Shown piece after piece: positions 7,829-53,788 of a stretch of 64,000 bases of DNA (position 1 is the first letter of the stretch; each line of letters starts with the position of its first letter). A program made the position numbers and the translations under genes. Location of the stretch: the NCBI GenBank assembly GCA_002989075.1, contig PSQN01000005.1, positions 558,001 to 622,000 of the forward strand, in the 5' to 3' direction. Source of the DNA: Arthonia radiata. Taxonomy: Eukaryota; Ascomycota; Arthoniomycetes; Arthoniales; Arthoniaceae. Below the pieces are notes generated by a model. The model was not told the origin of the DNA. It did not search any database and saw only the letters and a program-made list of their open reading frames with translations.

Positions 7829-9457
7829 TGGAGCTTTGGACTGCCTTTAGATGAGGTCCGAATACCGTAGTTAATGGATGACGGTCTCAGGTTTCCGACA
7901 TTAAGATTGAAAAGTTGTGAACCAGATGCACCGATTCAACGTAGAACCGGGGTGCCGGGTCATCCTAGAGGTGAAACAAATGTCACTCGCTTGGACCCGT
8001 ATTCGAGGTGAAAGATAGGGTTAGGGTTGTCTTAGCCGAATCGCACTGGAACACGTGTGACGTCGCTTCTCCGAGCCTCACTGCTCAAAGCCCAAACCTG
8101 AACGAGTGCATGACGAGATGACACGGGAAGAAGTCAGCGGCCGGCTGCGGGTACCCAACAAGTCGTGCGGGCTCGCGTTGTGGCCACGAGCCCATTATTC
8201 TCTCCACCACGCCACGAGATTTCAGTGTACCCACATCACTCCGTTCAAGCGGAACCTTGTTTGGGTCGTCCAAGTGATAGAATTTGCTCACATGTGCTAC
8301 AAGGGCCGTAGTGAGTAGCGGTGATAGTGTCGTTTTGCGACCCTTCATCCGGCCATGACTGTCGAATGTCCTCGACGTCCTCGGTCGTGAGAGAAAACTC
8401 CACACACCATGCGAGGTCGCGTACAAGGCTACGAGGACCACCTTTACCCGCGTGTGACCTCAGATGCGATTGTACAGTCTCTCTTCCGTCAACATCGAAT
8501 CCTTCGACAAAAGAATCAGCCATGACATGCGGTGTTCGCCTCGCCTTCGGCAAGGTAAAATCCTATGTATTGCCAGGCGGCAAGATAGTGCTCGGCACGG
8601 CGGTGAGTGCATTTTTCAGAATTTGTACACGATGATTGCTATGCCCAAGTATTCCTGCAGTCAGCGCAAACTGCATGACGCTCGTTCCAGCCAGAGCGAT
8701 GCCGCCGCAATACGACATTCGCACATTCGCACATACTTCCCGCCACGTCAGGTCAATCCGCAGAAAAACTTCCAAGCTTTCTAAAAGAGCACCTGACTCA
8801 AGCCCGTCGCAAATTTCTTCGAGTACAGTAATACACGGCAGCTATGCGTGACTCGGCTTCGGCAATTAATTGGCATTTAACGAAACTTATAGGTCCAGCC
8901 TTTCGAAAAAGTGGACACCGTGTGTTCGAGCAACATGCCGTACCGGGTACGACTTGCGAAGCGCCCTTTGCACGGAACAATGGCAAAGGCGGCTGACTGG
9001 CCCGTGGACAATCCTCACAGACCATGACTTCCGTCTTCAGCCATTATAAGAGCCTGCCGCTCCCGTGCGTACCTTGGGGCCAACCGTCACTGAATCCGCC
9101 GTGTCAACAGTCTCGCAGTAAAGCACGGATACGGATTGGTACGTCACGCTTCTAAAATAGAGATGACGGACCGACACAGATGACAGCTATACTGGGCGAA
9201 TAACATACCAGACTGTCAAGTTATGCGAGCGCCTGTCCGACGTTGAAGGATATTCTGATCCATACTCATCTCAATACACAGACCTGCTTGAACACGTCCT
9301 TCATTCATTGCATCAGCGCCGGCATGTTATTCGTTCACTCTTTGTACACACGTTGAGCGCGCTGCGCTCCCATTACGACACTTCATCCGCTCGCCTCACC
9401 ACTTCTATACTCGGTTGAAGTAAATCGTGGAAGGCTCGGCTCTCTTTCTCGTCCAGC
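7829..9457. other. Intergenic, 1.6 kb, with a weak possible minus-strand gene remnant
   Basis: Two minus-strand open stretches in one frame, 8775-8563 and 8553-8245, are separated only by an in-frame TAG at 8565-8563 and could be one decayed gene. Parts look protein-like (VMQFALTAGILGHSNHRVQI), but I recognise no family. A telomere-like TAGGGTTAGGGTT lies near 8017-8030. The last few hundred bases should hold the promoter of the TmpA-like gene. Confidence 0.35.
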
Positions 9458-11008
9458 ATGGTCTTTGAAGACATTGATGAACTTTTCAGTGAAGACGAAG
9501 AAAAGTTTTTCGGTGTCTACACGACGTCGGCTTCTTGCCGCAGCAGCCTCTCAGATGTCACACTCCCAGCGTTGAGCGCCCCGGGCTCAGTATGGATGGC
9601 TGGCGACAGTTCACGCGAAAACTTAGTACCGCCTCAAGATGTTCAGAAACCAGAAGTATCTGAAAATTGCAAGCCTGCACATCGACCACAACCACCGGAC
9701 AAGATTGGTAATCAACTGTACCGCAACCTGCGATGGACTTTCTTGACCCCATACAGACGGCTGATGTCTTTCGCATTATTCATAAACCTCATCTTCTTGG
9801 CCCTGCTACTATCGATACCAAGTTGGCGAAGGACACGATTGAACTACGCAAACACGGCCACAGCCACGTCGGTCAACATAGCGATGGCCGTGTTTCTCCG
9901 TCAGGAGCATGTGGTCAACTCATTATTCCTCTCGGCTTGCAAGATATCTGTTCGTGCTCCTCTGCGGCTTCGCTGTTGGCTTGCAAAGGTCTACACATAC
10001 GGTGGACTTCACAGTGGTTGCGCTCTTGCTGCCACAATGTGGTTTGCCATCTCGACGGGTTTCATTTTCCGACATCTGGTGGTTGAGCCCCGCGTGGATC
10101 CTAGCGTCGCTGGCGTCGCCACGACGATCCTATTGCTGCTATTACTAATGACAGCGTCAGCATACCCTACGTTTCGCATCAAGTATCATGACTGGTTTGA
10201 AGGCATTCATCGATTCGCTGGATGGACCATCGTGGCCCTGTTCTGGACCGAAACAATGCTTATCACCGCGATGGACGCTCGCAAAACAAATGCACCATTC
10301 GCCAATGTTCTCGTGAAAAGTTCAAGCTTTTGGTGCTTGATTATTATTACATGCAGCATTATCCTGCCTTGGCTTCGGCTGCGACCGATGACAGTCCGTC
10401 CGGAGCGTTTGTCAGACCATGCCATTCGCTTGCACTTCGATGGCGAGCGAGCTACGATGGGACAAGGATTCCGTCTGTCGGATAAGCCACTGCTCGAAAA
10501 CCATGCCTTCGCCGCCATCGCAGATCCGAAAGGCGGAGACAGTTTCTCCGTCCTGATTTCTAATGCGGGTGACTGGACGAGCAGTGTCATTAGAAATCCA
10601 CCGACTCGCCTATGGACTCGAGGACTGCTACAATATGGCGCCATCCGGGTGGCCACGCTGTTCCAGCCCGTCCTCGTGGTGGCGACAGGCTCGGGGATCG
10701 CGCCTTGTCTCTCCCTCTTCAACGGCGCGCCGGACTTACAGTGCCGTGTGCTATGGTCTGCACCGAAGCCGCTCGAGACGTTTGGTCAAGGTGTCTTCGA
10801 CACCGTGCTTGGCAAAGATCCGGACGCTCATATCATCGATACACGCGTCTCCGGACGTCCTGATCTTGTGCGAGAAGCCTATTGGAGGTACAAGGCCGTT
10901 GGCGCTGAAGCGGTAATAGTGATATCAAACGCCGCCGTCACGCGCAAAGTGGTGTATGGCCTGGAATCAAGAGGCGTGCCCGCCTTTGCGCCAATATTTG
11001 ATTCATAG
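9458..11008 (+). CDS. tmpA: TmpA-like integral membrane flavin oxidoreductase
   Basis: Single exon, 516 residues. The architecture matches the Aspergillus TmpA family (a membrane protein needed for the FluG-independent asexual development signal). It has a soluble acidic N-terminus of about 100 residues. Several hydrophobic segments lie between about 105 and 310 (LMSFALFINLIFLALLLSI, then FIFRHLVV, TTILLLLLLMTASA, TIVALFWTETMLI, CLIIITCSIILPWL). The C-terminal half is oxidoreductase-like, with a nucleotide-binding turn VVATGSGIAPCLSLF near residue 408. Heme-ligand histidine pairs typical of true ferric reductases are not obvious, consistent with TmpA rather than FRE. In many fungi TmpA sits beside or is fused to an NRPS-like adenylation protein; none is present here. 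The role is inferred from the family. Confidence 0.82.
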   Translation: MVFEDIDELFSEDEEKFFGVYTTSASCRSSLSDVTLPALSAPGSVWMAGDSSRENLVPPQDVQKPEVSENCKPAHRPQPPDKIGNQLYRNLRWTFLTPYRRLMSFALFINLIFLALLLSIPSWRRTRLNYANTATATSVNIAMAVFLRQEHVVNSLFLSACKISVRAPLRLRCWLAKVYTYGGLHSGCALAATMWFAISTGFIFRHLVVEPRVDPSVAGVATTILLLLLLMTASAYPTFRIKYHDWFEGIHRFAGWTIVALFWTETMLITAMDARKTNAPFANVLVKSSSFWCLIIITCSIILPWLRLRPMTVRPERLSDHAIRLHFDGERATMGQGFRLSDKPLLENHAFAAIADPKGGDSFSVLISNAGDWTSSVIRNPPTRLWTRGLLQYGAIRVATLFQPVLVVATGSGIAPCLSLFNGAPDLQCRVLWSAPKPLETFGQGVFDTVLGKDPDAHIIDTRVSGRPDLVREAYWRYKAVGAEAVIVISNAAVTRKVVYGLESRGVPAFAPIFDS

Positions 11009-37279: not shown

Positions 37280-38982
37280 ATGGCCGGAACGCCGCCTCAA
37301 GAGGCACCAAGATTCCAGCTACCTGAAAAGTTTATATCCAGCGTCGAACATCCAGGTGTGATTGTGAACCCTCAGAATGCGCTCAGATCTTTGGGAGGAC
37401 CGCGAGCGATACAAGAAGTATGGGAGCATGGCCCAACAAACGCCGATTCGCTGACCTCGAGCAGACATTCATACATGGTGTCGAAGAAAAGCCACTCGGC
37501 TTTCAGACCAGGCCAAACGATCCCTATCGACGCCCAAATTTCGCACACGAAGTCGCGACTAGCAATATCGTGCTGAAACTTTCAATTCCCAAGCGCACCG
37601 GTCGTCGGCGCAAGAAGGGATCTACGGACCCGTTCATATGCGATAACGAACCCCAAAAGCCTGCTCCTATCTCCACCAGGTCACTGATCCGACGATTGCA
37701 AGATAACCGTGACAAGCATTCAGTAGCGGTTATCGGCAGCGTTGCAGAGACTTTCAGATTCCGGGCTCTTCCCGACTTTCAGTACTCGCTCATGTCCAGC
37801 AGAATGGCCACTGACTTTCAGAACAAAATACTTGTTTACAATGTCGAGGCTTTGAAGTCGTTCGACATGTCGCAGGGAAAGTCACAATGCTCGCAGACAG
37901 AGGATGTGATTCCGCCACCGGTGTTCTGCCCGACACCCTTCCCGCACCTCTACGGGTATAACCAGAATCCCAACGTCAAGAAGACGCTTGACGCAGACGG
38001 GCGTACCGTCATCATCAATACCCAAGCTGTAGGCAAGACGGGGGCTCCAGGCGTGCAATACGATGTGCAGCAGGTGCCTAGCCAACCCAACTCTTCGCTG
38101 CCTCCCATTCACACGCTGAGTGAGGGTATCCAGAAATGCATTCGGGTGATGAAAGAAGTACTTGAGAAGCGACCAATCTTCACCCGCCGCGCTTTTGTCA
38201 ACACGCTCGGTCAAGACTTCAACTACGACATTAGATTCTCGACTCCTTACTGCGTCTACACGTTCCTTTCTGGCCCATGGCGGGACACCATGATCAGAAT
38301 GGGATTTGATCCTCGCAATAATCCAGACTCGCGTCAATACCAGACTCTAGGTATCAAGCTCTTAGGGCGGGCCGATCATAGTCAAGGCGCAATAGTTCCG
38401 GCGTGGAGGCAGGGGCGGACGGAAACGATTGGCGGTGTATACCCCACGAGCCACATATTTGACGGAGAGCATATCTACAGAGATGGGAGTACGTGGCAGT
38501 TGTGTGACATTACTGATCCGTTATTAGTCAACATCATCAACAAGTTTCCTCCTCGGCGGAAATGTCATGTATGTATTGCCAAGCTTTTCCGTGCGCTGGA
38601 GATGCAGCTAACCGGTGCTCAGCAAACTACTTGGGGCTGGATGGAGATGGTGCCCTTTTGCAAAGTGCATGTCGTAATGCGGGATAAAACGAGGATATTA
38701 CTTGAGGGTCGAAAGCCGGGTGACGATGACTACAGTTTTATCTACGACCTACCAGACGATATTGCAGATCTCAGAGAGCATCTCAGGACAACTAAAGATT
38801 TGGAGAGCAAGAAGCGAACCATGGCCACGAACATCCGATCTATGGCCGATGATTCAGGAGTTACTCATCGAGGCGCGGGACGATCGCAAAAAACGCGAAG
38901 AGGTACCCTGAAGGCTTACGAAGCACACAATGGAGCAGCATTGGGAGCAGACGTAGACAATGAGAACGAGAACGTTGAATGA
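37280..38982 (+). CDS. TFC1: RNA polymerase III transcription factor TFIIIC subunit (tau95/Tfc1, Sfc1)
   Basis: Exons 37280-37417 and 37462-38982 (44-nt intron, GTATGG donor, GCTGAC branch, CGAG acceptor, phase 0), 552 residues. TFIIIC tau95 binds the A-box of tRNA genes. The N-terminus (FQLPEKFISSVEHPGVIVNP, then LRSLGGPRAI) is typical of the tau95 dimerisation region. It is followed by FQTRPNDPYRRPN and NIVLKLSIPKRTGRRRKKGS. The barrel and DNA-binding portion includes RPIFTRRAFVNTLGQDF and YCVYTFLSGPWRDTMIRMGF. The C-terminal acidic stretch has GDDDYSFIYDLPDDIADLRE. Without the short intron the frame breaks at 37461, so the intron is well supported although short. Confidence 0.88.
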
Positions 38983-39485: not shown

Positions 39486-39820
39486 ATGGCCGGCTGCGGA
39501 TCCATCCTCGTTGTCATCATCACCATCTTCCGCACGTACAAACCAAGTAACTCGCCTGCGAGTGTATACTAACACTCCATCCAGTCCCTCCTGTTGGCGT
39601 TTTCCTCGTTGCCGGCTGTGGCGTTGACCTCCTCATCAACATCTGCCTCACCGTTCTGGGCTACATCCCAGGCCATATCCACGCCTTCTACCTTGAATAC
39701 GAATTCTACAAGCGCCGCGATGTCCTACGCTCCGGCGGCACCATCACACATGACGCGAGCGGTATCTACAGCAGGAAGGTGCAGAGCGGTGGAGGTGTGG
39801 GTGTGCCTGTGCACGCTTGA
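39486..39820 (+). CDS. PMP3/UPF0057-family membrane proteolipid, array copy 1
   Basis: Exons 39486-39546 and 39585-39820 (38-nt intron with GTAACT donor and a perfect TACTAAC branch; phase 1), 98 residues. The most canonical copy: TM1 SILVVIITIF, then PPVGVFLVAGCGVDLLINIC and TM2 LTVLGYIPGHIHAFYLEYEF, matching the Pmp3/Sna family consensus. A 40-residue hydrophilic tail (YKRRDVLRSGG..) follows the usual 55-residue core. PMP3 proteins sit in the plasma membrane and in yeast influence membrane potential and Na+ tolerance; the role here is inferred. The intron lies just before the Pro-Pro motif, as in the other six copies, but the second intron seen in those copies is absent. At 38 nt it is very short, which leaves some doubt about the exact donor. 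Confidence 0.88.
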
Positions 39821-41556
39821 TCGGACGTCGATAGCGTTGCAGACTTGAAAGACTGGAAGGGGGGATGACTGCTTCTTTATATGATACCCAGAATGCATAG
39901 GGAAAATGTCGTTGGCACAGAAGACGACGGATTTGTAACGCGTTGACAGGCGAAGCGTCTTGTTGCAGGCAGAAGATATCTTTTTTGTTCGAAACAATAC
40001 AATTGTAGTAATTGTTTATATTGCAACCAACTCAAGCGCTGCTCGAATTGCATACCCAGTGTTGTTCATGCACGGCATGTTTCCACACACTGAAGTTCTA
40101 AATACAATTCTACCGTCTGCAGGATGCCATCTGTGCCGCGCACGGTTCCATGTAACATTTCCTGGTTTCAAGACTGCGGTAATAACATCAGCAACAGAGC
40201 CGTCAGCATCTTGACGCCGGGGCGCATACAGTACACGTCTTGCAGCGTAAGAGCAAACCGCAGGAAGCTGTCTTTCAGGCGAGATGGTGCGACCGATCCA
40301 CAATTTTCCAGATTACGATACAGGCCGAAGGCGCTGGCCAACCAGCGATGCGGCGTAGGATTGTCATTGCTGCAAGCAAATTCGCGAGCCGGTCCTGAAT
40401 CTAATTATAACTTCTAACGGGTGATCTGCCTTGGCAAAGCTTGTCACCATCCGACACTGACTTCAAAGTTCCGTCTTCCCTGAAGTCATGAAACGATCAC
40501 ATTAGGAATGTATCCCACTGTGACGCATAGTATACGTTGGAATGATTTATGCAAGACTGAGCTGTTACTGCAGGCGCTCAGCGCCAGATCGAACAACATT
40601 GTATCTGGGTGAGAGCGTCCGTACCAAAGAGAAGCCACCTGTCACGCCCACGCAGGTTGCAGCTTGATAATGCGGCTATAATGCAGGATTCATCTGGATG
40701 CGTCGGCACCCAAGCGAAGCTTGTCACTCGGTGCAGACCAAGCTTAGGTAAGTGCGTTACGCTGTTGTGTTTCAGGCATGAGTCGCAAGACGTATGTCGC
40801 CTTGCTTTCTGTCGAGACTCTGGCGATATGGAAAGATCTCGCACTCACCAACATAAATGCCTTCCTCAGTGCTTGTATACTACTATCACGGAGGTTGAGC
40901 AGTGGGCGGAGTAACCCGCGGAGTACATGTCCCAGTTGCCTCGTCGTAATCTGTGGAGCAGCGCACGGCCTGGCGGATCCTGCGATCTCGTATCTCGTTT
41001 CAAGTTTGCATCCGAGCACCCATCCTTCTTACCTGCGCAAGGAAATTCCTGCGAGGTCTCGCTATGCTAATATCGCTCTCCAGGCATCGATAATCGATGT
41101 CTGATCTAGCAATCTTCCGCAAAAACGTGCAACGATCCACGCAGCACCTATCGCAGTCTACGCTTACACGCGATACCTTGGTTCGTACGTCACTCGAGAT
41201 GGCGTCAGCTTGGTCGCTTTCACTCCTAGCTGCCGGGGCGGCTTACTCTAAGCCATGCTTGTGGCATCCGAAGGTCGTCGCCGCAGTCATCCCCACTTTG
41301 CCGACAGTCTCAAACACCTCCGTCAGATGCGTTGACGTGTCCACATGTCCAGCCAGCTCGCTCTCCGCCCGTCGATGTTGCGTGTTCTGTGCTGAGTTAT
41401 GGCCACGTCTTCTAATGCGCTTGCTATATCTTGGCTGCACTTTTATCTTGGCGTCTCGTACTCCAGACACTTCTCCATTGCTTGGCTGAAACATTCTTGG
41501 CTTTCTTCCATTCACCTCAGACACTACCAGTAACTACATTACAAGCATCAGCCAAC
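39821..41556. other. Spacer between array copies 1 and 2
   Basis: 1.7 kb with no secure gene. An open frame at 41199-41489 begins with a signal-peptide-like MASAWSLSLLAAGAAYSKPC and could be a small secreted protein or just leader sequence; I give it low weight. Confidence 0.35.
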
Positions 41557-41985
41557 ATGGGTCCTGTTAAGTGGTGCCGTTACATTTTTTCCTGTACTTG
41601 TAGGTCGCGCATCTTTCTTTTGCAGCATGCCCTTCCAACCGTAGCATCCTCCACTAACACTGCCTAGTACCTCCCGTAGCATGCATCTGGCTGACAGCGG
41701 AATGTTGCGGCGGGTAAGGATGCAGACCAACGTCGTAAGCCTAGCCATCACGTTGACCCCGTCTCTAGGGATTTTCTTTGGAGCCTCGGTCTCACGCTGT
41801 GCGGTGTCCTTCCCGGCATAGCTCATGCTATTTACCTGGTCCACGAATTCTATAAGAACAAAGAGATAATGGAGAAATATGCAAAAGGCCACGGAGACCC
41901 ACCAGAATCTGATCCGTTTTGGATTTACTCTGATCGGATCAAGTATGGCGGGCATGGCAAACCAGATGTGGAAAAGGGCCATTGA
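41557..41985 (+). CDS. PMP3-family membrane protein, array copy 2
   Basis: Exons 41557-41593, 41668-41713 and 41769-41985 (introns 74 and 55 nt; CACTAAC branch in the first), 99 residues. Core: MGPVKWCRYIFSLPPVACIW and LTAECCGGDFLWSLGLTLCG followed by VLPGIAHAIYLVHEFY. This preserves the PMP3 order Cys-rich start, PPVA, Cys pair and (I/L)PGIxHAxY. The tail (about 40 residues) is charged and ends GKPDVEKGH. Intron phases 1 and 2 lie at the same positions as in copies 3-7. No single frame is open across the gene, so the splice model is essential; it restores the full family pattern. Confidence 0.82.
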
Positions 41986-43620
41986 GAGCATGGCGGAAAG
42001 CATCATTCTGGATCTGAGAGCGATTGATTCTGTGAGAAACATATAGTTCCCGCAGGACGTCGAGCGCCACGATATTGGGATCCGTGTGTTGCAGTGGAGT
42101 CAGGCCCCAAATCGGATCGTATGCTCACTCAGTTGATGCAAAAGAAGGCTTGGTGGTTGCGTTTTGGAAGCGTCTCTGTACATGATTGGTCAAATGGGCA
42201 ATGAAATATTGGAATTCCCTCGCGGCTACGGCACTGCTGTTCCTGCTATACTGCTGTTGTTTTCACAGCTTCGCACCCTGACATGACTCAATTGAATATA
42301 CACACTCTCTGCCATTCACCGTCAAGGCTCGCGCCTCGCCAGTTGAGTGCATCCATCTTTCCGCAAGATGCACGTCCACTACACATGGGGCGGTCCCTAC
42401 ATAGATGATCTTGCGGTACTACTTCAGCTGTCTAAAACAGATGGCATCCTAGTTGTGCAGAAGCACATTCAACTGACCTCGTCCGACTATACCAGCACGT
42501 GTTCTGCTGGATTGACGGTCAAGCAATTATCGTGTCCAATGGTAACAACCTCATACAGCAATGAATTCTAGAACACAGTGGGTGCTAGAACTGCGCGACT
42601 GTATCTTGATCGGCTCCGGGAGTCAACATGTACTTCAAAGAGTCTCTAGTGTTCAGATGGCAATGTTGCCGTTGCCACGTCCCCGTAGCGCGTGTCTAAA
42701 CCCCTATACGTTCGGGATATATACTGTCTTCGCGCTTCCCCCCTTGCGAACGAGCATGCAGCCTGTTTGTGGCGATGAGAGACAACGTCCTCGCAGGATA
42801 GCGAGGGCACGTCCCTGCTACTTTCACTCGATTCTTTCCGGCTGTGTTCGGGTTTGTACCCGCTGAAGCTCAGTCGTCCACCGAACGGGCTATGAGGATA
42901 CAGATACTTTTTTTACGATACCCTTAATCCACCTCCCGAGGCGCACAATCTGACCGACATGCTCCAGAATTTGCACGACAGAACCTGCGCATTTGCGAAG
43001 CAAGCTTCGTGAAGAAAGCGGTTGCATAGCTCAACATGAAGGAAGCGGTGTGGGGAAGCTTCAGCATTTTTGCGACAGCAGCTCACACAAACGTAACCAG
43101 TTCGCGGTCCATCTCTGCTTTGGAAGGTTACGAGCCACTGGGCGCGCGTACAAAGCTACGGTGTCTGCGACCTCACGCCCGAGTTTAATTTTGAGGGGAT
43201 CTAGTTCTGCCATGTGTCCAGTGAGTCTCATAAAGGGGGTTTCTGCTTTGCGAAGCCTGCATATAGTTTATTGTTTAGCGCTTCAGGCCCTTACTAGCTA
43301 GTAAGTCCATGGCACCAATGTACTTACCCTTTGGGCGACGCAGACAAATATAGTCTACATGCGTCAATCAGCAACGTTCTTTACATCTGGCAACTTAGAA
43401 CAATAGACTATCGCTGCAATCATGCCTGCCGTTTGCCGCCTGGGTGTGATATTAAAGACAACACTTCACCTTCTGCTGGGCTATTGACGGTGCAGAGTCA
43501 CGATCTCGCCAATATTCGCTCTTGCTCCGCTCGAGGAACCATCACCATCTCGTTCGACAAACACGCCGATCGCCCAAGCGCGTGCACATACGTCCTCGGT
43601 GTCAGCAAGCGCAAGTCAGC
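41986..43620. other. Spacer between array copies 2 and 3
   Basis: 1.6 kb. Several short open frames, none with a domain or convincing start. No PMP3 signature found here by eye. Confidence 0.4.
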
Positions 43621-44025
43621 ATGTTCTGCGACCAAGACTTCTGCTGCGATCTTTTGATCTTCATCATCTGTAAGTAGGCTTGCGAAACCTGTCGTCGACC
43701 CTACACATGTCGATAGACCACAACATCAAGAATGCCGTGCTAATCGTGACGCAGTCCCGCCTTTCATCGTGTGGAAGAAAACAAGGGACCAATTGTGAGT
43801 TACCAGCGCAAGATAAGACGTCGGAAATGCTGTGCATTTCTAAACGTGCTTAGCTGGACCATCATCGATTGCGCACTCGTTATAACAGGTATCGGACACA
43901 TTATCGCCGCGGTCTTCTGGGTGAAGCATCCTGAGGATCTGCCAGAAAGCGAGAACGGAAGCGGAAGCGATCGTGCAGAGAAGGGCATGAATGGGAGGCT
44001 CGAGGGTTGTTCTAGAGACTCGTAA
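43621..44025 (+). CDS. PMP3-like membrane protein, array copy 3 (diverged core)
   Basis: Exons 43621-43669, 43755-43794 and 43854-44025 (introns 85 and 59 nt, donors GTAAGT and GTGAGT), 86 residues. MFCDQDFCCDLLIFIIFPPF starts with the Cys-rich head and carries the Pro-Pro motif; then IVWKKTRDQF. The second hydrophobic segment is WTIIDCALVITGIGHIIAAV, where the usual YIPGIIHA has become GIGHIIAA, so the conserved Pro-Gly is lost. The tail is Glu/Ser/Gly-rich. Intron phases 1 and 2 match the other copies, which supports common descent despite the divergence. Confidence 0.75.
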
Positions 44026-44979
44026 GGGAGCATGGGAGATCACGCTTTGTTGTAGCCTCAAGTTTGTTTCTCGCGTTCTGCAAGTTGAGCGTAATACTTG
44101 CGTCCGTTATGTGAAACTTGCGGACAATGCAAAGCGCCTGAAGTGATATTGCTGATGCGAGGCCTACAAGCTCACTGAGCATGCTCCCATTCGCACTCGA
44201 ATCGAATCGGCGAAAATTCAACCACTGCTCCTTCCTAGGCGGTCCATCGTGCTGCTCAGCCGGTCGAACCTGGCTTTGATGTTGCTCTTGTTTCCTATTC
44301 ATACAGTCGGTAAGAGCCTGAACCCCACCATAAGCAGCTACACTTTAGAAAAAGGTTGACGCGCACTCGTTCATTCACCGTGCCGCGTCAGACGCTGCTC
44401 GCTTTATTATCGTCACTGAGTGTATTGACTTGCGAGGCGAACAGTAAAGCCGCAAAGAGGCTGTTTTATTGGGGTATCACGAACTGCCACAGCAAGAAAT
44501 ATCGATTCTTACTCGAAAAGGAGAATATTCGTATCGTCGGAGACGGACTCCACGTCCCGCATATGTTTCTTCTTCCTCTTCCTTTCTGTAGAATTCTCGT
44601 ATACGTGTCCTCAGCTTCCGTCAGCTGCGTAGATACCCTCTCACAGAGTACCATATTCGATTGGATGTGTCTCTGAGTCAGCCCAGACAGGCTTAGGCTG
44701 TACTTGCCCCACGCCCCAAAGAACACGATGCAAAGTAACAGCCCTGCTGCGCCCAGCGCTCCCCAGTAGACATGTCTCCATTTCTAGCTAACGGTGCTTC
44801 CATTTCTGCAATCTCCACGGGGTTGTTTCACAAGTCACCGGTATTCTTTTCTGTATAGGCGGTTGGGCCGAGTAGCTCAAGCAAGGCTGAAACACCCGGA
44901 AAGACTGTAATACCCACCAGACAAGCGAGGCAATCGTTGCGCGCGATGGTTTAGGAAAAGAGTCGAAGGATCAAGCATC
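44026..44979. other. Spacer between array copies 3 and 4
   Basis: 950 bp. On the minus strand (about 44780-44466) an open stretch encodes a hydrophobic segment (WGALGAAGLLLCIVFFGAWG) followed by a hydrophilic part, possibly a fragment of a small membrane protein. No start or splice model convinced me. Confidence 0.3.
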
Positions 44980-45481
44980 ATGCTTTGCGGCTGCTGTGGT
45001 GTCGACTATGGGTGTTGCTGCCTATCGATATTTCCAGGTTTCCGATGGAGCAAACCCATTCCAAAACTGCTTATCCTCGTTACCCTCATCCGTACGTCTT
45101 TCTGACCCCGCAAATGGCGGAATTCAAGGTCATGCGAGTCTTGCAAAAGATGTAGCGTCATCTGACATACTTGCAGTTCCACCTCTAGGCTATGTATTCA
45201 AGCGGGATTTCTGCTGCAACTGCAGCCTGTGCTGTACTATTTGCAAGCCGTACGTGTCGACTTTCCACCATTATTGCGAACAGCGTACTGATAAGCTTGG
45301 TCACAGTAAACTCTGGATCGCTATACTTCTGACGATTCTTGGCTACATCCCTGGACATGTCTTTGTCTTCTATGATCTGAACAAGCACTTCACTAAGGAC
45401 GACAAAAGCGACGAGAAGAAGGAATTGAAAGTGAAGGAGAAAGACCTCGAAGCCCAAGACCAGCCGCGGAGGAGGTCATAA
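44980..45481 (+). CDS. PMP3-family membrane protein, array copy 4
   Basis: Exons 44980-45091, 45177-45249 and 45307-45481 (introns 85 and 57 nt, both with GTACGT donors), 119 residues. The head is strongly Cys-rich (MLCGCCGVDYGCCCLSIF) and extended by about 20 residues before TM1 (KLLILVTLI). Then come LPPLGYVFKRDFCCNCSLCC and TM2 WIAILLTILGYIPGHVFVFY, a clear PMP3 pattern. The tail is a 35-residue Lys/Asp/Glu helix (KDDKSDEKKELKVKEKDLEA). Nine cysteines flank the membrane segments, far more than in Pmp3 itself, and may be sites for palmitoylation or metal binding; that is speculation. Confidence 0.85.
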
Positions 45482-46066
45482 TCACCGGCGATGATGCATG
45501 AGGGTGAGGCGTTTCCTTTGAAATGGGTACGGAGCGTGGCGTGTTAAGCAAGAGCCTTATGAGTTCTGAAAGTCTGCTTTAGTCGCAGAAGCAACCGAGT
45601 GTTCACGGTCTTGCCGCGAATGCAACACAACTAGTGCCACTGCCCATTGAGCGCACGTGCGATAGCTTCCGGCCGTAGCAAAAAATGTCTGCCCACCTAA
45701 TGACCGCCCATGTCTGTATCATGCCAGATATAGAACGGAGGATCGCGGCACGGGCCGATACCTGCAGCGCCCATGAGGCTGATCTAAACAGGTGGCCCTG
45801 AACCCATTTTCCTCCACCATACAGCCCGCCGAAACCTGCAGAGGAACCACACGACCAGGCTCGAACACCGGCCTCGCCAAACACGGTGCCTCGCCAAACA
45901 CGGTGCCTCGCCAAACACGGTGCCTCGCCAAACACGGTGCCTCGCCAAACACGGTGCCTCGCCAAACACGGTGCCTCGCCAAACACGGTGCCTCGCCAAA
46001 CACGGTGCCTCGCCAAACACGGTGCCTCGCCAAATTACCAGTGCCAGTTGAAGAAGTCCGCACAAA
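45482..46066. other. Spacer between array copies 4 and 5, mostly minisatellite
   Basis: 585 bp containing the 17-bp minisatellite at 45871-46034. Open frames on both strands here come from the repeat and are not genes. Confidence 0.5.
45871..46034. repeat. 17-bp minisatellite, nine perfect copies plus a partial one
   Basis: The unit GCCTCGCCAAACACGGT is repeated head to tail without change from 45871 through 46023, and a tenth partial unit (GCCTCGCCAAA) ends at 46034. The array lies 32 bp before the start codon of PMP3-like copy 5, within its promoter or leader. Because 17 is not divisible by 3 and the unit contains no stop in any phase, several frames on both strands stay open through it. 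Confidence 0.97.
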
Positions 46067-46493
46067 ATGGGCAAGGGCACCGGATGCTTCTATTGGACCT
46101 TCATTGGTCCCCTCAACATCATCTGTACGTCTGTCTCGTCGATGCAAGGCTGCCCCAACGGATATGGCGCTACGTATGATGCAACCGCTTACATCACCAC
46201 AGTCCCGCCCCTAGGCGTTCTACTCGGTACATGGAACATATGGTAAGTGTGCTCGGCGTCGGCGACACTATTGGCTAACAGCGCACTGCAGCTATGTTCT
46301 CTTGAACATCCTCCTCACAGCGCTCGGATGGATACCTGGCGTGATTTTCGCCTTCAAATGGACGCTGGAACATCGCCACGAGAAACATCGTAAACACAAT
46401 GAGAAAAGGATAAAGAAGTTGGGGCTTCATGAGCACCTTGAAAGTTATGAGCCTGAGAAGCCCGAGAAAGAGTCCAAGAACAAGAAAAGTTAG
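46067..46493 (+). CDS. PMP3-family membrane protein, array copy 5
   Basis: Exons 46067-46124, 46203-46242 and 46292-46493 (introns 78 and 49 nt, GCTAAC branch in the second), 99 residues. MGKGTGCFYWTFIGPLNIIF forms TM1. PPLGVLLGTWNICYVLLNIL and LTALGWIPGVIFAFKWTLEH form the conserved core and TM2, close to the PMP3 consensus. The tail of about 45 residues is almost entirely His/Lys/Glu (HRHEKHRKHNEKRIKK), strongly basic then mixed. ATG 46067 sits in AAAATGG context directly after the minisatellite. Intron phases 1 and 2 as in the other copies. Confidence 0.88.
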
Positions 46494-47812
46494 ATGGCCA
46501 GCAACCTTGGACGAGAGGGAATGATGTGGACACAATAGAGGACAGCTTAGAGCCGAGGCCCCATAAGAGGCGTTGAAGGCGCGCGACACCGAGCCACCTC
46601 ACCGCACGAAAGGGCAACGCCCAGGTCCACATTGGCGCACTGCCTTGCCGCTGTTGTCAACACCGAACCCCTCAATCCGCGTGGCATTTTCACAATGCCA
46701 TAACCATCGCGTTGTCGAAGAGGGCCTCGGTGCTGTCTCGCGGAGCACATATCCAACCTTTAACATCATCAATGTCCAGCTCCCAGGCTGCAGCTTCGAC
46801 ATTATTGGGGAAACGATATATAAAGCATCCATCACTGTCTAGACTTAGCAAGACGATGCTCAAGATGGCGGGCCATTCTAGGCGTAACAAAGGCCAGGCT
46901 TGCGCTCGCGACACAAGGCAGCTCTTGTAAAGTGCAAACAAGCACTTCGCAGCTCCAACGAGCGCTCACTCACAAGGAAGCTCTGAAGATTAAAATGTAG
47001 GAGTAGTGAAGACAGGCCAGTAATAATGGAGCGGTTCCCGCCTGATCGCTATCAAGACTGCCATGAATCAAACGTGAGTTTTCAGCTGAGTTCGTCAGCT
47101 CGATAGGGCCTAAACCTCGGACTCCAACCAACCCCCTCTTGCGAAAGATTCCGACCAGTGTCGATACTCAGTAGACTTCTTGCAAACTGTTTGTATAAAA
47201 CGATGCGTGTAATAGAATATGCAGCGCTAGCAGGGGCTTAAAACCGCACTAAACTGATTAAAGACGATGTAAGACGACTCTCGGTTCCAGAACCGGGCCT
47301 ACAACAGATCCTTCTACATACAGCCTCAAAGCGACCCGAACCGAACCGAGACCAGTAAGCCAGCAAGATCGAACTATGCTACGTAGCCTGCTTGAAAAAA
47401 TATGAGCATACGATTGGGAACTTTGCCACAGGTTCATTGAGTACCGATCACCAGCTGCTGCGCATCGCTTCAGCGCTGTTAAGGTGGTTATTGTTATTTC
47501 GATGTCTGCAAAGTCAAAACTCGCGCTCGACGACTTTGATACCGTGCAAGCAAGTGACATGGGGGCCGGCGATTCGAGTTCCATCCATAAAAATATCGAA
47601 GGGTCAGCAGATCCCCATGGCGAAGCCTTTGGCCTCCCGTGCGCGCATCCCACACGGCATACATGGCATCCTTGAAGCTTGCAAAATGAGGCTCGTGTAG
47701 CGACCCACCGGCAGGATGATTCTTTATTAGTGAAGCCGCCAGCCATGACACTGCTGCGGGCGGCGAAAGTGCCAAAGCACGAACGCGTCTGAGTTCGAAA
47801 CGATATTGGCTA
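46494..47812. other. Spacer between array copies 5 and 6
   Basis: 1.3 kb. A 63-codon open frame near 47484-47675 (SMSAKSKLALDDFDTVQASD) looks mildly coding and resembles a hydrophilic tail exon, but I found no PMP3 core before it. It could be the remnant of an eighth copy. Confidence 0.3.
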
Positions 47813-48335
47813 ATGGCCGCCGACACAAGCTCGCTGTTCCTGAGAGTGATAGCTGCGCCGTTCGTCTTTCGTAAGCCACCGCCTCGTTCAGCAAGCGTCG
47901 CGTGCAACAGACCAGCTCCAGGGTCCACTAACACAACCGCGCAGTTCCATTCATATCAGTGGCCATCGCAAGTGGCTTTGACTCCGAGTATGAGCATCTC
48001 GATCTAGCATAAACCTTCATCGATGTCTCGTACTAAGCCAGGGATTTAGCGCCTTCAAAAACTCCTTCAGGTTCATGTACCACGGCCTCTACATCAATGG
48101 CATCCTCTACGCCTGCGCCTGGGTGGAGGACGGCAGAGAACCGAGACACATGCATGCGAACTGTTTCGATGACGAGAACTGTTACAACTTTGGTTGGCTG
48201 ACTGGCGCGATGAAAAAGCCCGCTTTGCCGTTGGGTATGGCACAGTGGTTTGGCAGTCAGAGTCTCTCCACCACCAAAGAAACACCATTGAGAGACGTCG
48301 AAAGAGGCCCGGAGAGTCCTCAGAGAGCTGTGTAG
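47813..48335 (+). CDS. PMP3-like membrane protein, array copy 6 (diverged, long tail)
   Basis: Exons 47813-47870, 47945-47987 and 48050-48335 (introns 74 and 62 nt), 128 residues. MAADTSSLFLRVIAAPFVF is TM1. LPFISVAIASGFDSD replaces PPxxV (first proline lost). AFKNSFRFMYHGLYINGILY with ACAWVED aligns with LLINxLLTxLGYIPGIIHAWY, where Pro of YIPG has become Asn. Exon 1 has the same length as in copy 5 (58 nt), and the intron phases 1 and 2 are conserved. The tail is the longest in the array, about 70 residues, with a CFDDENCYNF segment. The second acceptor (TTTAG at 48049) was set by frame, so a few residues around it are uncertain. Confidence 0.68.
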
Positions 48336-48944
48336 GATGAGGACCGATACGCGGCTTAGCTGTTTACCTAGTCTACGACCAACCATGACTGACAGGAACA
48401 GGCGGTGGAAGTCGTCAAGAATCAAAGTTAGCTATTACGGGGAATGGCAGAGTGCCTTTGCCCGCGCCAGGAGTACACAGGCGAGGGTCAAGAAGAGCCT
48501 CTGTGAAGTGAATCTGTGAAGCCGAAGCAGTTGTCGCGCTTGCTGGCTGTGTCTACGAGAGGCCCATTGCGGTCGTGTACGGCAGAGAGAGCTGACAGAA
48601 GCAGCTATAATCTTACGGAAACCCTCTCCAATGACCCGGCTCACATGGTAAAAAGCCGCGCAATCTCTCATTGGCTAACAAAACGGATGCTGTGCTAATG
48701 CTTGGCTGACACATACCATGATCGAGCAAGGTGTCCACTGGACCCGCACGACGCAAACGGCAAGACCTGCCTCGTGCAACTTGTCCCCATAGGCAGCCGT
48801 TCTTCATTTTCCGATTCCATTGAATACTCTCAATGGCTAGTGGTGTGTCCATTCATATTGCTTTGCGACGCGGGAGACTCGGTGAAATTTTAACTACCGC
48901 GACCTTGTTCGAGGCCTGCCCCTTCAAACAAACTCTAGCCCAAG
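48336..48944. other. Spacer between array copies 6 and 7
   Basis: 600 bp, no gene supported. Confidence 0.4.
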
Positions 48945-49313
48945 ATGGGCTTCTGCACGAACGCACTCCTTAGCATTTTTGCATTTTTTTGTGAGTCTGC
49001 GCGGAAGGCAACGGCGAAGCATTACCACCAGCTGAGCTCAATGGCGCAACATTGATGGCTTCAGCCTGTACCGCATAACACTACCGAGACGGGAATATTG
49101 GCTAACGAACAAGGACAGTGCCACCGGCCGCGGTATTGTTCAAAAAGGATCTCGACATCTGTAGCCCGTAAAAATTAAATCATACAGCCCTCTTTCACCG
49201 ATGCAAGGCTGATGCTTCGAGACAGGCAATTCCTGATCAACATTTTGTTGACCATCATAGTCTGGATCCCTGGTATTCTTCATGCCTGGTGTGTCATTTG
49301 GTTCCACCTATGA
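48945..49313 (+). CDS. PMP3-family membrane protein, array copy 7 (minimal form)
   Basis: Exons 48945-48990, 49119-49167 and 49226-49313 (introns 128 and 58 nt; GCTAAC branch in the first, donors GTGAGT and GTAAAA), 60 residues. MGFCTNALLSIFAFFLPPAA, VLFKKDLDIC, then QFLINILLTIIVWIPGILHA and WCVIWFHL: a nearly standard PMP3 of family-typical size with no added tail. Intron phases 1 and 2 conserved. The exons are too short to appear as a long open frame, yet spliced together they give the full family consensus. The last gene of the array; about 680 bp separate it from the bL27m gene. Confidence 0.85.
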
Positions 49314-49996: not shown

Positions 49997-50886
49997 ATGT
50001 TGCTCAATCGCCTGAGCTGGCCACTCGCACACTCTGGGAATAAGCAGATCTCCCGCACGCAACAGCATGTCATCACGGGCGAGCTTGTTCTACGGCCGCA
50101 CTGTCGACAGCAACCCTCTCCCTTCGCCGTCACCGTACGCCATGCCACGCACGGTGTCCAAGGTCGCGCAAACGGGCCAAAGAATGGGCCGGGCAAGCGA
50201 CTGGGGGCGAAGAAGACAGGAGGTGCGTGCAGCTCTCACTCTAGGCGATCTTGTATGAAACAACAATCCGCTAACCACTCCACCACTATCCAGACGAATA
50301 CGTAATCCCCGGCAACATCATCTTCCGCCAACGCGGCACGAACTGGTACCCCGGCGAAAACGTCGGCATGGGCCGCGATCACACGCTCTTCTCCCTCCAA
50401 ACCGGCTACGTGAAATACTACCGCAACCCGAGCCTACACCCAAAGCGTCGATACATCGGCGTAGTCTTTGATCGGAACCACACATTGCCCCCTTCACCGA
50501 CAGCACCGCGACGCAGAAAGCTCAACATGATCGCCGTGCCGCGCAGGGACGAGCCCGCAGAACCACCGATCAACCAGGACGCGGTTGGGATACTTGATAC
50601 TGTGCAGGACCCTGCGGGCCAGGTCCTTGTGGCGTCGCGAACGACGAAACGGAGTAGGACGGGGGATGAAGATGTTAAGATGCGGCCAGATTATAGTTAT
50701 CGGGAGAGCAATTGGCAGATTGGACGGGCGGCGGAGAAGGCGGGCGTGAAGGTTAGGGAGTTCGAACCGGGCGATAGGTTCCGTGCGTGGCGTAAGACCA
50801 ATGTGAGAAGGGCGAAGGCTGCGGAGAAGAGGGCGATGGGCAAGCAGAAGACCGTCAAGCGGAAAGGGAAAGCAAGGAAGCGGTGA
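49997..50886 (+). CDS. MRPL27/MRP7: Mitochondrial large-subunit ribosomal protein bL27m
   Basis: Exons 49997-50222 and 50294-50886 (71-nt intron, GTGCGT donor, GCTAAC branch, ATCCAG acceptor, phase 1), 272 residues. A basic N-terminal presequence leads to [20 protein letters not shown] and [10 protein letters not shown], the bL27 N-terminal signature. The globular part follows: [20 protein letters not shown] and [21 protein letters not shown] long fungal C-terminal extension (about 150 residues), basic and ending [14 protein letters not shown], is typical of the Mrp7/MrpL2 family (yeast gene MRP7, alias MRPL2). Located near the peptidyl-transferase centre in the mitoribosome. The ATG at 49997 is the first in frame with the presequence. 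Confidence 0.92.
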
Positions 50887-51464: not shown

Positions 51465-52156
51465 TTATCTGTCATCGGGAGCGTCCTTAGCCTTGCGCAG
51501 TCCCAACATACTCCTCTTAGGCTTGGGTTTGGCTGTCTGCGCTGGCTCATGCTCGGTATCAGACTCATTCCGAGAAGCCGGATCTGGATGTATCACCCTT
51601 CTATATGCGTCACGGAGTGGACTGCGGCTCGGTTTCCTCGCCGATGAGCCTTCTGTGCCCCTGAATGGAGATCGAAGGAGTCTACCGAAGCCAGAGCCGC
51701 GGCTCTCGGACTCAGGCGTTTCATTGTCGCGGCGTCGTACCTCCTGCTTACGAACCGGGAGGGGGCGAAGGGCTGAAGCATTCTCCAAATCATGCTTGTT
51801 GAAGTCCTTCCGTGGTGGCGTGGGTGGCCTGTCACCCTGCTAATTGTGCATGTAAGCTCAGCGTTCGGGAAAGGGACGTCCTCGAGGAGAAAGGGACGTC
51901 CTCGAGGAGAAAGGGACGTCCTCGAGGAGAAACGTACGTCGTCGGTGGCACCGGCTTGATTGCCGTGTTTGCGTTCACTCCCGTTGAAGTATTGGACATA
52001 TGGGATTTTATGCTGCTTATGCTTGGCATGGAGGAAGTCTTTCGATTCCCTAACGTGACCGTCGCGCGCGCTAATGCACGGCACTTCGTAATCTATTCGT
52101 TGGAATCCGCCTTCTCCAATAGCTCCCCCTTTATTAGCCTCGACAGTGATGAACAT
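51465..52156 (-). CDS. Hypothetical Arg/Ser/Pro-rich protein
   Basis: Model: exons 52156-51938 and 51839-51465, 98-nt intron (GTACGT donor, ATTAG acceptor, phase 0), 197 residues. The C-terminal half looks like real disordered protein (RPPTPPRKDFNKHDLENASA, then SRGSGFGRLLRSPFRGTE) and ends KRSMLGLRKAKDAPDDR. The N-terminal half (MFITVEANKGGAIGEGGFQR) is less certain and further 5' exons are possible. The intron contains a 20-bp tandem repeat. The gene lies about 100 bp downstream of another minus-strand orphan. Family unknown. Confidence 0.4.
51869..51945. repeat. 20-bp tandem repeat, three perfect copies plus a decayed one
   Basis: Unit GAAAGGGACGTCCTCGAGGA at 51869-51888, 51889-51908 and 51909-51928, followed by a changed copy (GAAACGTACGTCGTCGG). 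Each unit holds two palindromes, GGACGTCC and CTCGAG. The decayed copy supplies the ACGTAC that serves as the minus-strand donor GTACGT of the preceding gene model, so the repeat fills most of that intron. Confidence 0.9.
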
Positions 52157-52256: not shown

Positions 52257-52823
52257 CTATTCAACATGTGAGCATGCTTTCTTTCGACCAGTGCCACTTC
52301 CAAGAAGTATTCCAGGAAGTGCTGGCAAGTAATCCGGATAGAAGGGGTAACGGTGATGTCTCCGGGCCACGTACTTGATCAAGACATGGGTAATGTGGTA
52401 ATTCCCTACGCTGACCTTCGTGCGATTTGGCTTGCCATCTTTCTTGTCGTTTTCCTGTAACCATGCCATAATGTTTTCAGCGATGCCGACGAAGTACTCC
52501 ACGTGTTCTTTCTCATCGTCAGGCGCGTAGGTGTTCCCGTGTTCGGGAATCTTTGAGGGGTCTACGAGACTTTTATTCTCCCACGCGCCAACGGAGACAT
52601 AAAAGTCTACGGTCCTACCCTCGCGCTGTCCACCCTCCCTTTGAGTCCAATCCTTGCCAGTGTAGGGGAGTTGGTATTTAAACCTATAGTTCTTGGCCTC
52701 CCCTTCTGTACGCAGCTCTGGCAGAACCTCCGTTTCATTTAGTACAGTAATCTTGTGAGGGTCCGTAGGATCGAAAAATGAAAGTCTCCAATCGGATTTC
52801 CCTCCAGGGGCCTTTTGCGCCAT
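52257..52823 (-). CDS. Orphan soluble protein, 188 residues
   Basis: Single exon from ATG 52823 (MAQKAPGGKSDWRLSFFDPT), ending 52257. No signal peptide or membrane segment. Balanced composition with many charged and aromatic residues (FKYQLPYTGKDWTQREGGQR, VDFYVSVGAWENKSLVD, AENIMAWLQENDKKDG), suggesting a folded globular protein. I do not recognise the family. Reading upstream of 52823 leads to a TTG-start extension without support. The C-terminus (LPALPGILLGSGTGRKKA) is hydrophobic then basic. Confidence 0.6.
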   Translation of the reverse strand: MAQKAPGGKSDWRLSFFDPTDPHKITVLNETEVLPELRTEGEAKNYRFKYQLPYTGKDWTQREGGQREGRTVDFYVSVGAWENKSLVDPSKIPEHGNTYAPDDEKEHVEYFVGIAENIMAWLQENDKKDGKPNRTKVSVGNYHITHVLIKYVARRHHRYPFYPDYLPALPGILLGSGTGRKKACSHVE

Positions 52824-53788
52824 TACGGAGAGAACGTGCGTGGTATTGAAACCCAAGTGAAGATGAGAGAAAGAAAGGCAGGCCGGATAAAAGGGAGTTG
52901 TTTATCGTGAACGCGTTGATGAAGGCTGATGTCACTTGTCATCTACTTAAAATAGCGATGCAAACAACACTTCGCGCGCTCATTATTACACCAAATCAAC
53001 TCGTCGTACTCGGTCTTCACCGATGCGAGTGCATTGACGTTTGCAAGAGCTTCTCTAACACTTGATCAAGCCAGATAGCAATTTTAGAGCATACTGATGT
53101 AGCTACGTGGTTGAAAGGGCAGTCAACGGCTGGCGCTTATGGAAAGAATAATGTAAGCGAGAGCTAGCTTCTACCGCGAATAATGATGGCGGGCTTGTCC
53201 CGAGTGGCACAGCTTCCGGCTTCTTCATCAGGGCAGACCTTGCGAGCGGACGGAAGGGTGCGAAAGCGTTGTGTTCGTACTGTTCGGGGTCTGACAACTG
53301 TAAAGTCCGCATGAGGAGCGCAGAGACAGTGTTGGGCTGTAGCTGACGGACAGCATGGTCCTTGTCAAGTTTTGTGGTATACCGTGCGTCAGTAGACATG
53401 TATATTCTTGAATGATGACGCGATCAGCTGAACGCAGATGCAATGTGTGCTGACACGCTGACGGGCCGTTGCAAGACAGGCGTATTCCAGGAGATGCGAA
53501 ACACAATGTTGTACGCAGGGCGTGTTTGTTTTATTGATGGTTGGCTCGGCAGTTTCTCAGGCTGAAGGGATTCAGTGGGCCTTCCGACGATGTCCCGACG
53601 ATGTGAAATGAGACGAGATCGGTACACGTTGGTTGAATGGGGAGGGTGTGAGGAATTATAGACGTGCAGTGCGTATTCTCCGAATCAGGTAATTTCTCAC
53701 TTGTCAATGGGTGCTCGTCGAGAATGTTTGCATCTTCATTACATACCTGCGCGGGTGGCCTCCGAATGCGCTGACCACCTCACATCAA
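52824..53788. other. Divergent intergenic region, 965 bp
   Basis: Between the divergent orphan gene and the auxilin-like gene. Open frames have no domains. I see nothing else. Confidence 0.4.

Follow-up and report, generated by a model that had tools for sequence, protein, structure and literature searches.

Why should a fungal genome keep a run of small, dissimilar genes for Pmp3-type membrane proteins side by side? The question arises from a 64,000-nucleotide (nt) stretch of the Arthonia radiata genome (contig PSQN01000005.1, positions 558,001 to 622,000; hereafter the window). Seven models rebuilt by splicing the window DNA, all on the plus strand, start at 39486 and end at 49313, the same outer limits that a preliminary description had given for the array. 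PMP3 proteins are widespread, tiny and poorly understood. The array itself is real, and its copies (c1 to c7 in order along the strand) are unequally secure. We put at roughly 60% the probability that it is an old tandem expansion of the Pmp3/UPF0057 family (PF01679) whose hairpin proteolipids were retained as head and tail variants, with functions assigned by family analogy. Neither the family nor expansion in tandem is new; what is unusual is how densely the copies cluster.

Five of the seven copies score above the gathering score of the Pfam Pmp3 model (22.9 bits): c1 (39486–39820; exons 39486–39531 and 39585–39820; 93 amino acids (aa), tailed) with 76.4 bits, c7 (48945–49313; exons 48945–48990, 49119–49167 and 49226–49313; 60 aa, tail-less) with 61.2, c2 (41557–41985; exons 41557–41593, 41668–41713 and 41769–41985; 99 aa, tailed) with 40.1, c5 (46067–46493; exons 46067–46124, 46203–46242 and 46292–46493; 99 aa, with a basic charged tail) with 39.2 and c4 (44980–45481; exons 44980–45091, 45177–45249 and 45307–45481; 119 aa, tailed) with 34.0. 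Judged by these scores, all five can be assigned securely to Pmp3/UPF0057. The c6 model (47813–48335; exons 47813–47870, 47945–47987 and 48050–48335; 128 aa) reached 16.3 bits (E 0.0096), below the gathering score, and c3 (43621–44025; exons 43621–43669, 43755–43794 and 43854–44025; 86 aa, tailed, with a cysteine (Cys)-rich head) had no Pfam-A match; a search of these two and c7 against NCBIfam returned nothing usable. Thus, where the preliminary description had called for a profile check beyond c1, c4, c5 and c7, c2 passes, c6 is marginal and c3 fails. The IPG..HA-like end of the second hydrophobic segment is full or nearly so in c1, c2 (as LPG), c4, c5 and c7, whereas the IPG core is lost in c3 (GIGHIIAAV) and degenerate in c6. 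Six copies have a pair of hydrophobic segments with Pro-Pro inside or following the first; the exception is c6, which has Pro-Phe and a weak second window.

Relatives were also sought further afield. A profile of four copies matched PscF, the Pmp3-type chain of 7ueb (PscF/Ric1 of 7ueb and 8gwa; E 2.1e-6), a likeness at the level of profiles; PscF differs in being a subunit of a bacterial photosynthetic complex, from what we take to be a green sulfur bacterium. With c7 as query, prokaryote genomes yielded 106 pattern matches, none of which was confirmed as a relative. A scan of viral contigs in IMG/VR narrowed 67 pattern matches to 16 loci (L001–L016) with small Pmp3-type proteins, which may be true viral genes or host carry-over.

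Because models picked by eye for PMP3 likeness score as PMP3 in any case, we ran tests that are not circular. Each copy was sought on both strands of the whole window with an ungapped spliced profile built without it; c1, which has no intron 2, was excluded as a target. Held-out c4, c5 and c7 were recovered at 54.6, 48.8 and 60.2 bits, respectively, c4 with an intron 2 donor at 45229 instead of 45250, and c2, using a donor at 41600 (6 nt downstream), at 30.5 bits, its exact model scoring 22.3. The best non-copy site in these four scans reached 3.1–5.3. Held-out c3 scored 10.0 bits against 0.4 for the best non-copy site, and with a profile built from the five copies that pass Pfam it scored 11.5, the best of 100 window shuffles reaching 8.7. 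The sites listed in the scan for held-out c6 did not include it, and its exact model scored −13.5. The second exon of c1 was the best unspliced match (41.3 bits) of a profile built without window sequences, the external profile of the tests below, which drew on trimmed proteins from 13 of the 16 viral-contig loci after L002 and L011 (duplicates) and L015 (a near-duplicate of L013) had been dropped.

A gapped-profile test, covering 8,609 enumerated spliced peptides with HMMER filters off, was less favourable to the two weak copies. Under the joint, external and window profiles, respectively, modelled c3 scored 5.7, 6.1 and 1.5 bits and modelled c6 5.8, 5.4 and 2.1, with 6.7 for a c6 variant using another acceptor. 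By gapped profile alone neither exceeded the median of 60 shuffle maxima (medians 7.0–7.65), and real non-copy sites, reaching 8.8, 5.8 and 7.1, outscored both under two of the three profiles; c3 and c6 are therefore not recognisable from sequence alone across 64 kb. Together with the missing Pfam match of c3, the sub-threshold score of c6 and the failure to recover c6 when held out, this result fits a smaller array, of five (or six) Pmp3 genes, in which c6 and possibly c3 would be splice models that arose by chance, or small genes of another kind between the true copies. We give that account slightly less than an even chance.

Splice signals separate the two copies. Acceptor weights were taken from the nine introns of c1, c2, c4, c5 and c7, donor weights from eight (c1 excluded), and those for branch points were chosen by hand after a fungal consensus. 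With these signals added to the profile, c3 scored 42.4, above all 100 window shuffles (median 31.6, maximum 38.7). The next-best site, at 42.0, runs into a succinate dehydrogenase subunit gene and has a PMP3 similarity of −2.0 bits, which shows that real introns contribute much of the combined score. The combined score of c6 lay within the shuffle distribution: 32.5 under the external profile, where a non-copy site reached 34.0, and 34.6 under the joint profile, against 34.5 for that site. When the gaps between copies were themselves shuffled, the score of c3 was reached in 0 of 400 shuffles and that of c6 in 1 of 400. On account of these combined and local-shuffle results we rate c3 a probable diverged Pmp3 relative and c6, tentatively, either a highly diverged relative or a chance model. 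Against the smaller array, c3 exceeds every window and local shuffle and has two correctly placed hydrophobic segments. The level of c6 is rare in local shuffles and c6 is codon-like, yet a real gap without a claimed copy scored 30.5, close to c6, and the non-copy site beats it under the external profile. Of the seven copies originally counted, then, five are secure, c3 is probable and c6 remains tentative.

The intron layout was as first described. Intron 1 lies in phase 1 directly before Pro-Pro (Pro-Phe in c6) in all seven models; intron 2, in phase 2, precedes the second hydrophobic segment in the six models other than c1, which has a single intron. A correction applies to that intron of c1: its position and phase hold, but it has no ordinary GT donor, a point unstated in the preliminary description. 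Either a GC donor at 39532 yields a 53-nt intron and the product ...ITIFLPPVG..., or a GT donor from 39547 yields a 38-nt intron and adds five residues. The Pfam score is 76.4 bits with GC and 64.2 with GT, a strong family match either way. The twelve introns of c2–c7 measure 49–128 nt, and in all twelve the best branch-point-like motif, under the hand-set weights, begins 14–19 nt before the acceptor, one in c5 being weak. First exons span 37–112 nt and middle exons 40–73 nt. No single frame holds any of the seven models in full, and c3 and c6 are both missing from the best 14 unspliced segments under each of the three profiles. The array thus illustrates clearly how genes can evade open-frame searches through short first and middle exons (37–112 nt).

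How old is the array? Core identity is 20–50% across all 21 pairs of copies, and the expansion looks old because the cores have diverged this far. Pairwise z-scores against shuffles range from 1.0 to 12.3 among c1, c2, c4, c5 and c7 (nine of ten above 3), from −0.3 to 3.4 for c3 and from −1.1 to 2.6 for c6. Recent duplication was rejected: among the 40 matches listed by self-BLASTN (E up to 1), the only one between copies joins the second-segment exons of c1 and c4 over 37 bp at 78% (E 0.029). Divergence driven by repeat-induced point mutation (RIP), for which the TpA/ApT cut-off is about 0.9, was likewise rejected; the ratio is 0.71 and 0.76 at 40–48 kb and 0.52–0.69 elsewhere, slightly higher in the array yet below the cut-off, and no RIP-like shift stands out. 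These comparisons are best read as old tandem duplication followed by retention, and the proposal of an old, same-strand PMP3/UPF0057 expansion stands, there being no long nucleotide match between copies among those listed.

Shared introns are weaker evidence for local copying alone than first implied, as intron 2 may predate the array as a feature of the family; if ancestral, it would be uninformative on local copying. In wheat, all family members have one intron, perhaps placed much like intron 2, and the last coding exons of genes of 54–57 aa measure 82–84 nt (PMC6288971). The last exon of c7, at 88 nt, is close to this in length. Most wheat introns appear, judged by exon length, to lie in another phase than those of the array.

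If the genes were retained, what do they make? Hydropathy reveals two segments of 1.5–2.8 in six copies (2.26 and 2.18 in c3); the second window of c6, at 0.97, falls under the local 95th percentile of 1.04. Only c7 is tail-less, with 10 residues past its second hydrophobic window, 0% of them charged, whereas the other six extend 33–69 residues beyond it. The heads vary too. Among the first 14 residues c4 has six Cys, c3 three, c1, c2, c5 and c7 one each and c6 none; c4 combines its Cys-rich head with a Cys-rich loop (12 Cys) and a tail that is 57% charged. The products are most likely membrane proteolipids that have diverged in head and tail.

We propose that each gene yields a proteolipid of 60–128 aa, with a short head, a hydrophobic hairpin containing Pro-Pro and, in all but c7, a hydrophilic tail at the C terminus. 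By family analogy the hairpin would sit in the plasma membrane or endomembranes, where it would affect the membrane's potential as well as its lipid and protein composition. The tail-less copy, c7, probably corresponds in function to yeast Pmp3/Sna1, with which it shares a 60-aa hairpin, Pro-Pro and the IPG..HA core, as compared through the Pfam model rather than the yeast sequence; it differs in sitting in a tandem array and having two introns. The tailed copies may act like yeast Sna2, Sna3 and Sna4, which also have hydrophilic C-terminal tails, and like plant group II proteins, the tail setting destination and partners. Sna4 has a Cys-rich, acylated N-terminal head, and the Cys-rich heads of the array would likely be sites of S-acylation. 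Removal of the Sna2 tail is reported to have altered the location of that protein (PMC7835403). Selection would then have kept the copies as head and tail variants of one scaffold and not as extra dose. Tail-less and tailed, Cys-rich and Cys-poor forms stand side by side in one genome, which would make the roles of head and tail testable.

Multi-gene PMP3 families are reported elsewhere, in other arrangements. S. cerevisiae has Pmp3 and three paralogues (PMC4428271), and Cladosporium sphaerospermum is reported to have four PMP3 genes regulated by the high-osmolarity glycerol (HOG) pathway (PMC4886633). In one basidiomycete, four putatively secreted proteins annotated PMP3 group together by sequence, not as a locus (PMC5689174). 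The plant RCI2/Esi3 family likewise comprises tail-less and tailed groups. In wheat, 29 genes are described in ten paralogous loci, mostly apart, with two tandem pairs and paralogues 47–93% identical (PMC6288971); the array copies are more diverged (20–50%), have two introns in six models and are clustered. No fungal tandem PMP3 array was found in titles or the openings of abstracts, many subscription papers lying outside the reach of the search.

Several observations weigh against retention of specialised head and tail variants. Codon scores were set against a reference of 4,327 codons from 11 open frames of the window and against 180 local stretches, which may themselves include true exons. 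They reached 0.074–0.140 bits per codon in c1, c3, c5 and c6 (local 95th percentile 0.037), whereas those of c2, c4 and c7 did not exceed that percentile, a sign of possible decay. The trafficking motifs of the yeast relatives, PPxY (the Rsp5 adaptor motif of Sna3) and YxxQ (Sna2-type), are present in none of the seven copies, a further difference from Sna2–4 besides the tandem clustering seen here. Upstream of the copies, counts of cyclic AMP response element (CRE), AP1-type, stress response element (STRE), GATA, Crz1-type and CCAAT motifs are not enriched over the window average. The codon score is not decisive, since the low-scoring c2, c4 and c7 are secure by Pfam. Neutral birth and death of an ancient tandem family, with some copies redundant, decaying and without specialised roles, would account for the strong divergence, the loss of the IPG core in c3, the weak second hydrophobic segment of c6 and the non-canonical donor of c1. 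We consider it unlikely: no RIP-like dinucleotide shift stands out, and in the five copies that pass Pfam the core stays in frame over small exons and is still picked up by the profile, although the open frames of spliced models are partly a product of model building.

The upstream counts bear equally on a locus in which the copies are induced together by stress and confer salt, pH or cold tolerance by dose. The family's role in yeast and plants speaks for such a locus, as does an excess of pH-type GCCARG sites upstream of the copies (10 sites where 5.2 were expected; P 0.034, unadjusted for the seven motifs counted). Loss of yeast Pmp3 is described as leaving the membrane hyperpolarised and cells salt-sensitive (PMC4428271), whereas Candida albicans without Pmp3 is described as depolarised, the opposite sign (PMC12298307). 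GCCARG was the only one of the seven elements in excess, and the counts give no further support to the salt- or ion-stress or surface-signalling role first suggested for this DNA; the salt-stress reading rests on knowledge of the family. A common upstream 8-mer was also sought and rejected, being shared by at most four of seven promoters, a level that 84 of 200 random sets reach or exceed. Besides the six motifs that are not enriched, the copies are too diverged for simple dosage, and six of seven carry tails, the type that, in reports cited by PMC7835403, failed to complement pmp3 loss; there, tailed plant forms failed in yeast and tail-truncated forms succeeded. A dose-based locus is accordingly improbable in our estimation.

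Retained head and tail variants might, at the far end of speculation, be interchangeable membrane adaptors, in which an ancestral hairpin was retained for insertion into the membrane while heads and tails diverged, giving each copy its own partner among channels, transporters or sorting machines. The model for this is C. elegans, for which 15 PMP3-like proteins are reported and where PMPL-1 and PEEL-1 form a cation channel, as yeast PMP3 and PMPL-2 did not (PMC12136403). The array resembles that case in having many PMP3-like proteins in one genome; the same source suggests that PMP3 proteins are perhaps monotopic rather than two-pass (PMC12136403). We infer this adaptor role from family analogy and regard it as a long shot. 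Were it true, the locus would regulate ion flux or surface-protein composition combinatorially, and the minisatellite before c5 might tune it, provided that repeat length varies. That minisatellite is a perfect 17-bp tandem repeat (45871–46034, plus strand; 9.6 copies, 100% matches) whose end lies 32 bp ahead of the c5 start codon. It likely lies within the c5 promoter or leader and is a candidate for length variation between strains.

The array is bracketed by open frames for a Tau95-type TFIIIC subunit upstream (37384–38979, plus strand) and ribosomal protein L27 downstream (50275–50883, plus strand), with further housekeeping genes elsewhere in the window; gene content and short introns look like those of a filamentous ascomycete. 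None of the four minus-strand open frames of at least 150 aa within the array has a Pfam match, shorter frames falling outside the scan; to that extent the statement that no other secure gene lies between the copies holds. Unspliced and spliced profile scans brought out no additional copies in the window, which also gave no tRNA and no Rfam family at gathering score. A 183-aa minus-strand frame (41548–42099), antisense to c2 and without a Pfam match, is probably a by-product of coding on the opposite strand. Elsewhere in the window, a 529-aa open frame (9419–11008, plus strand) with several hydrophobic stretches lacks a Pfam match at E 0.01. Downstream of the array, a 214-aa open frame (52260–52901, minus strand), also without a Pfam match at E 0.01, is a possible orphan gene, and a 20-bp tandem repeat (51869–51944; 3.8 copies, 94% matches) lies within a 261-aa minus-strand open frame.

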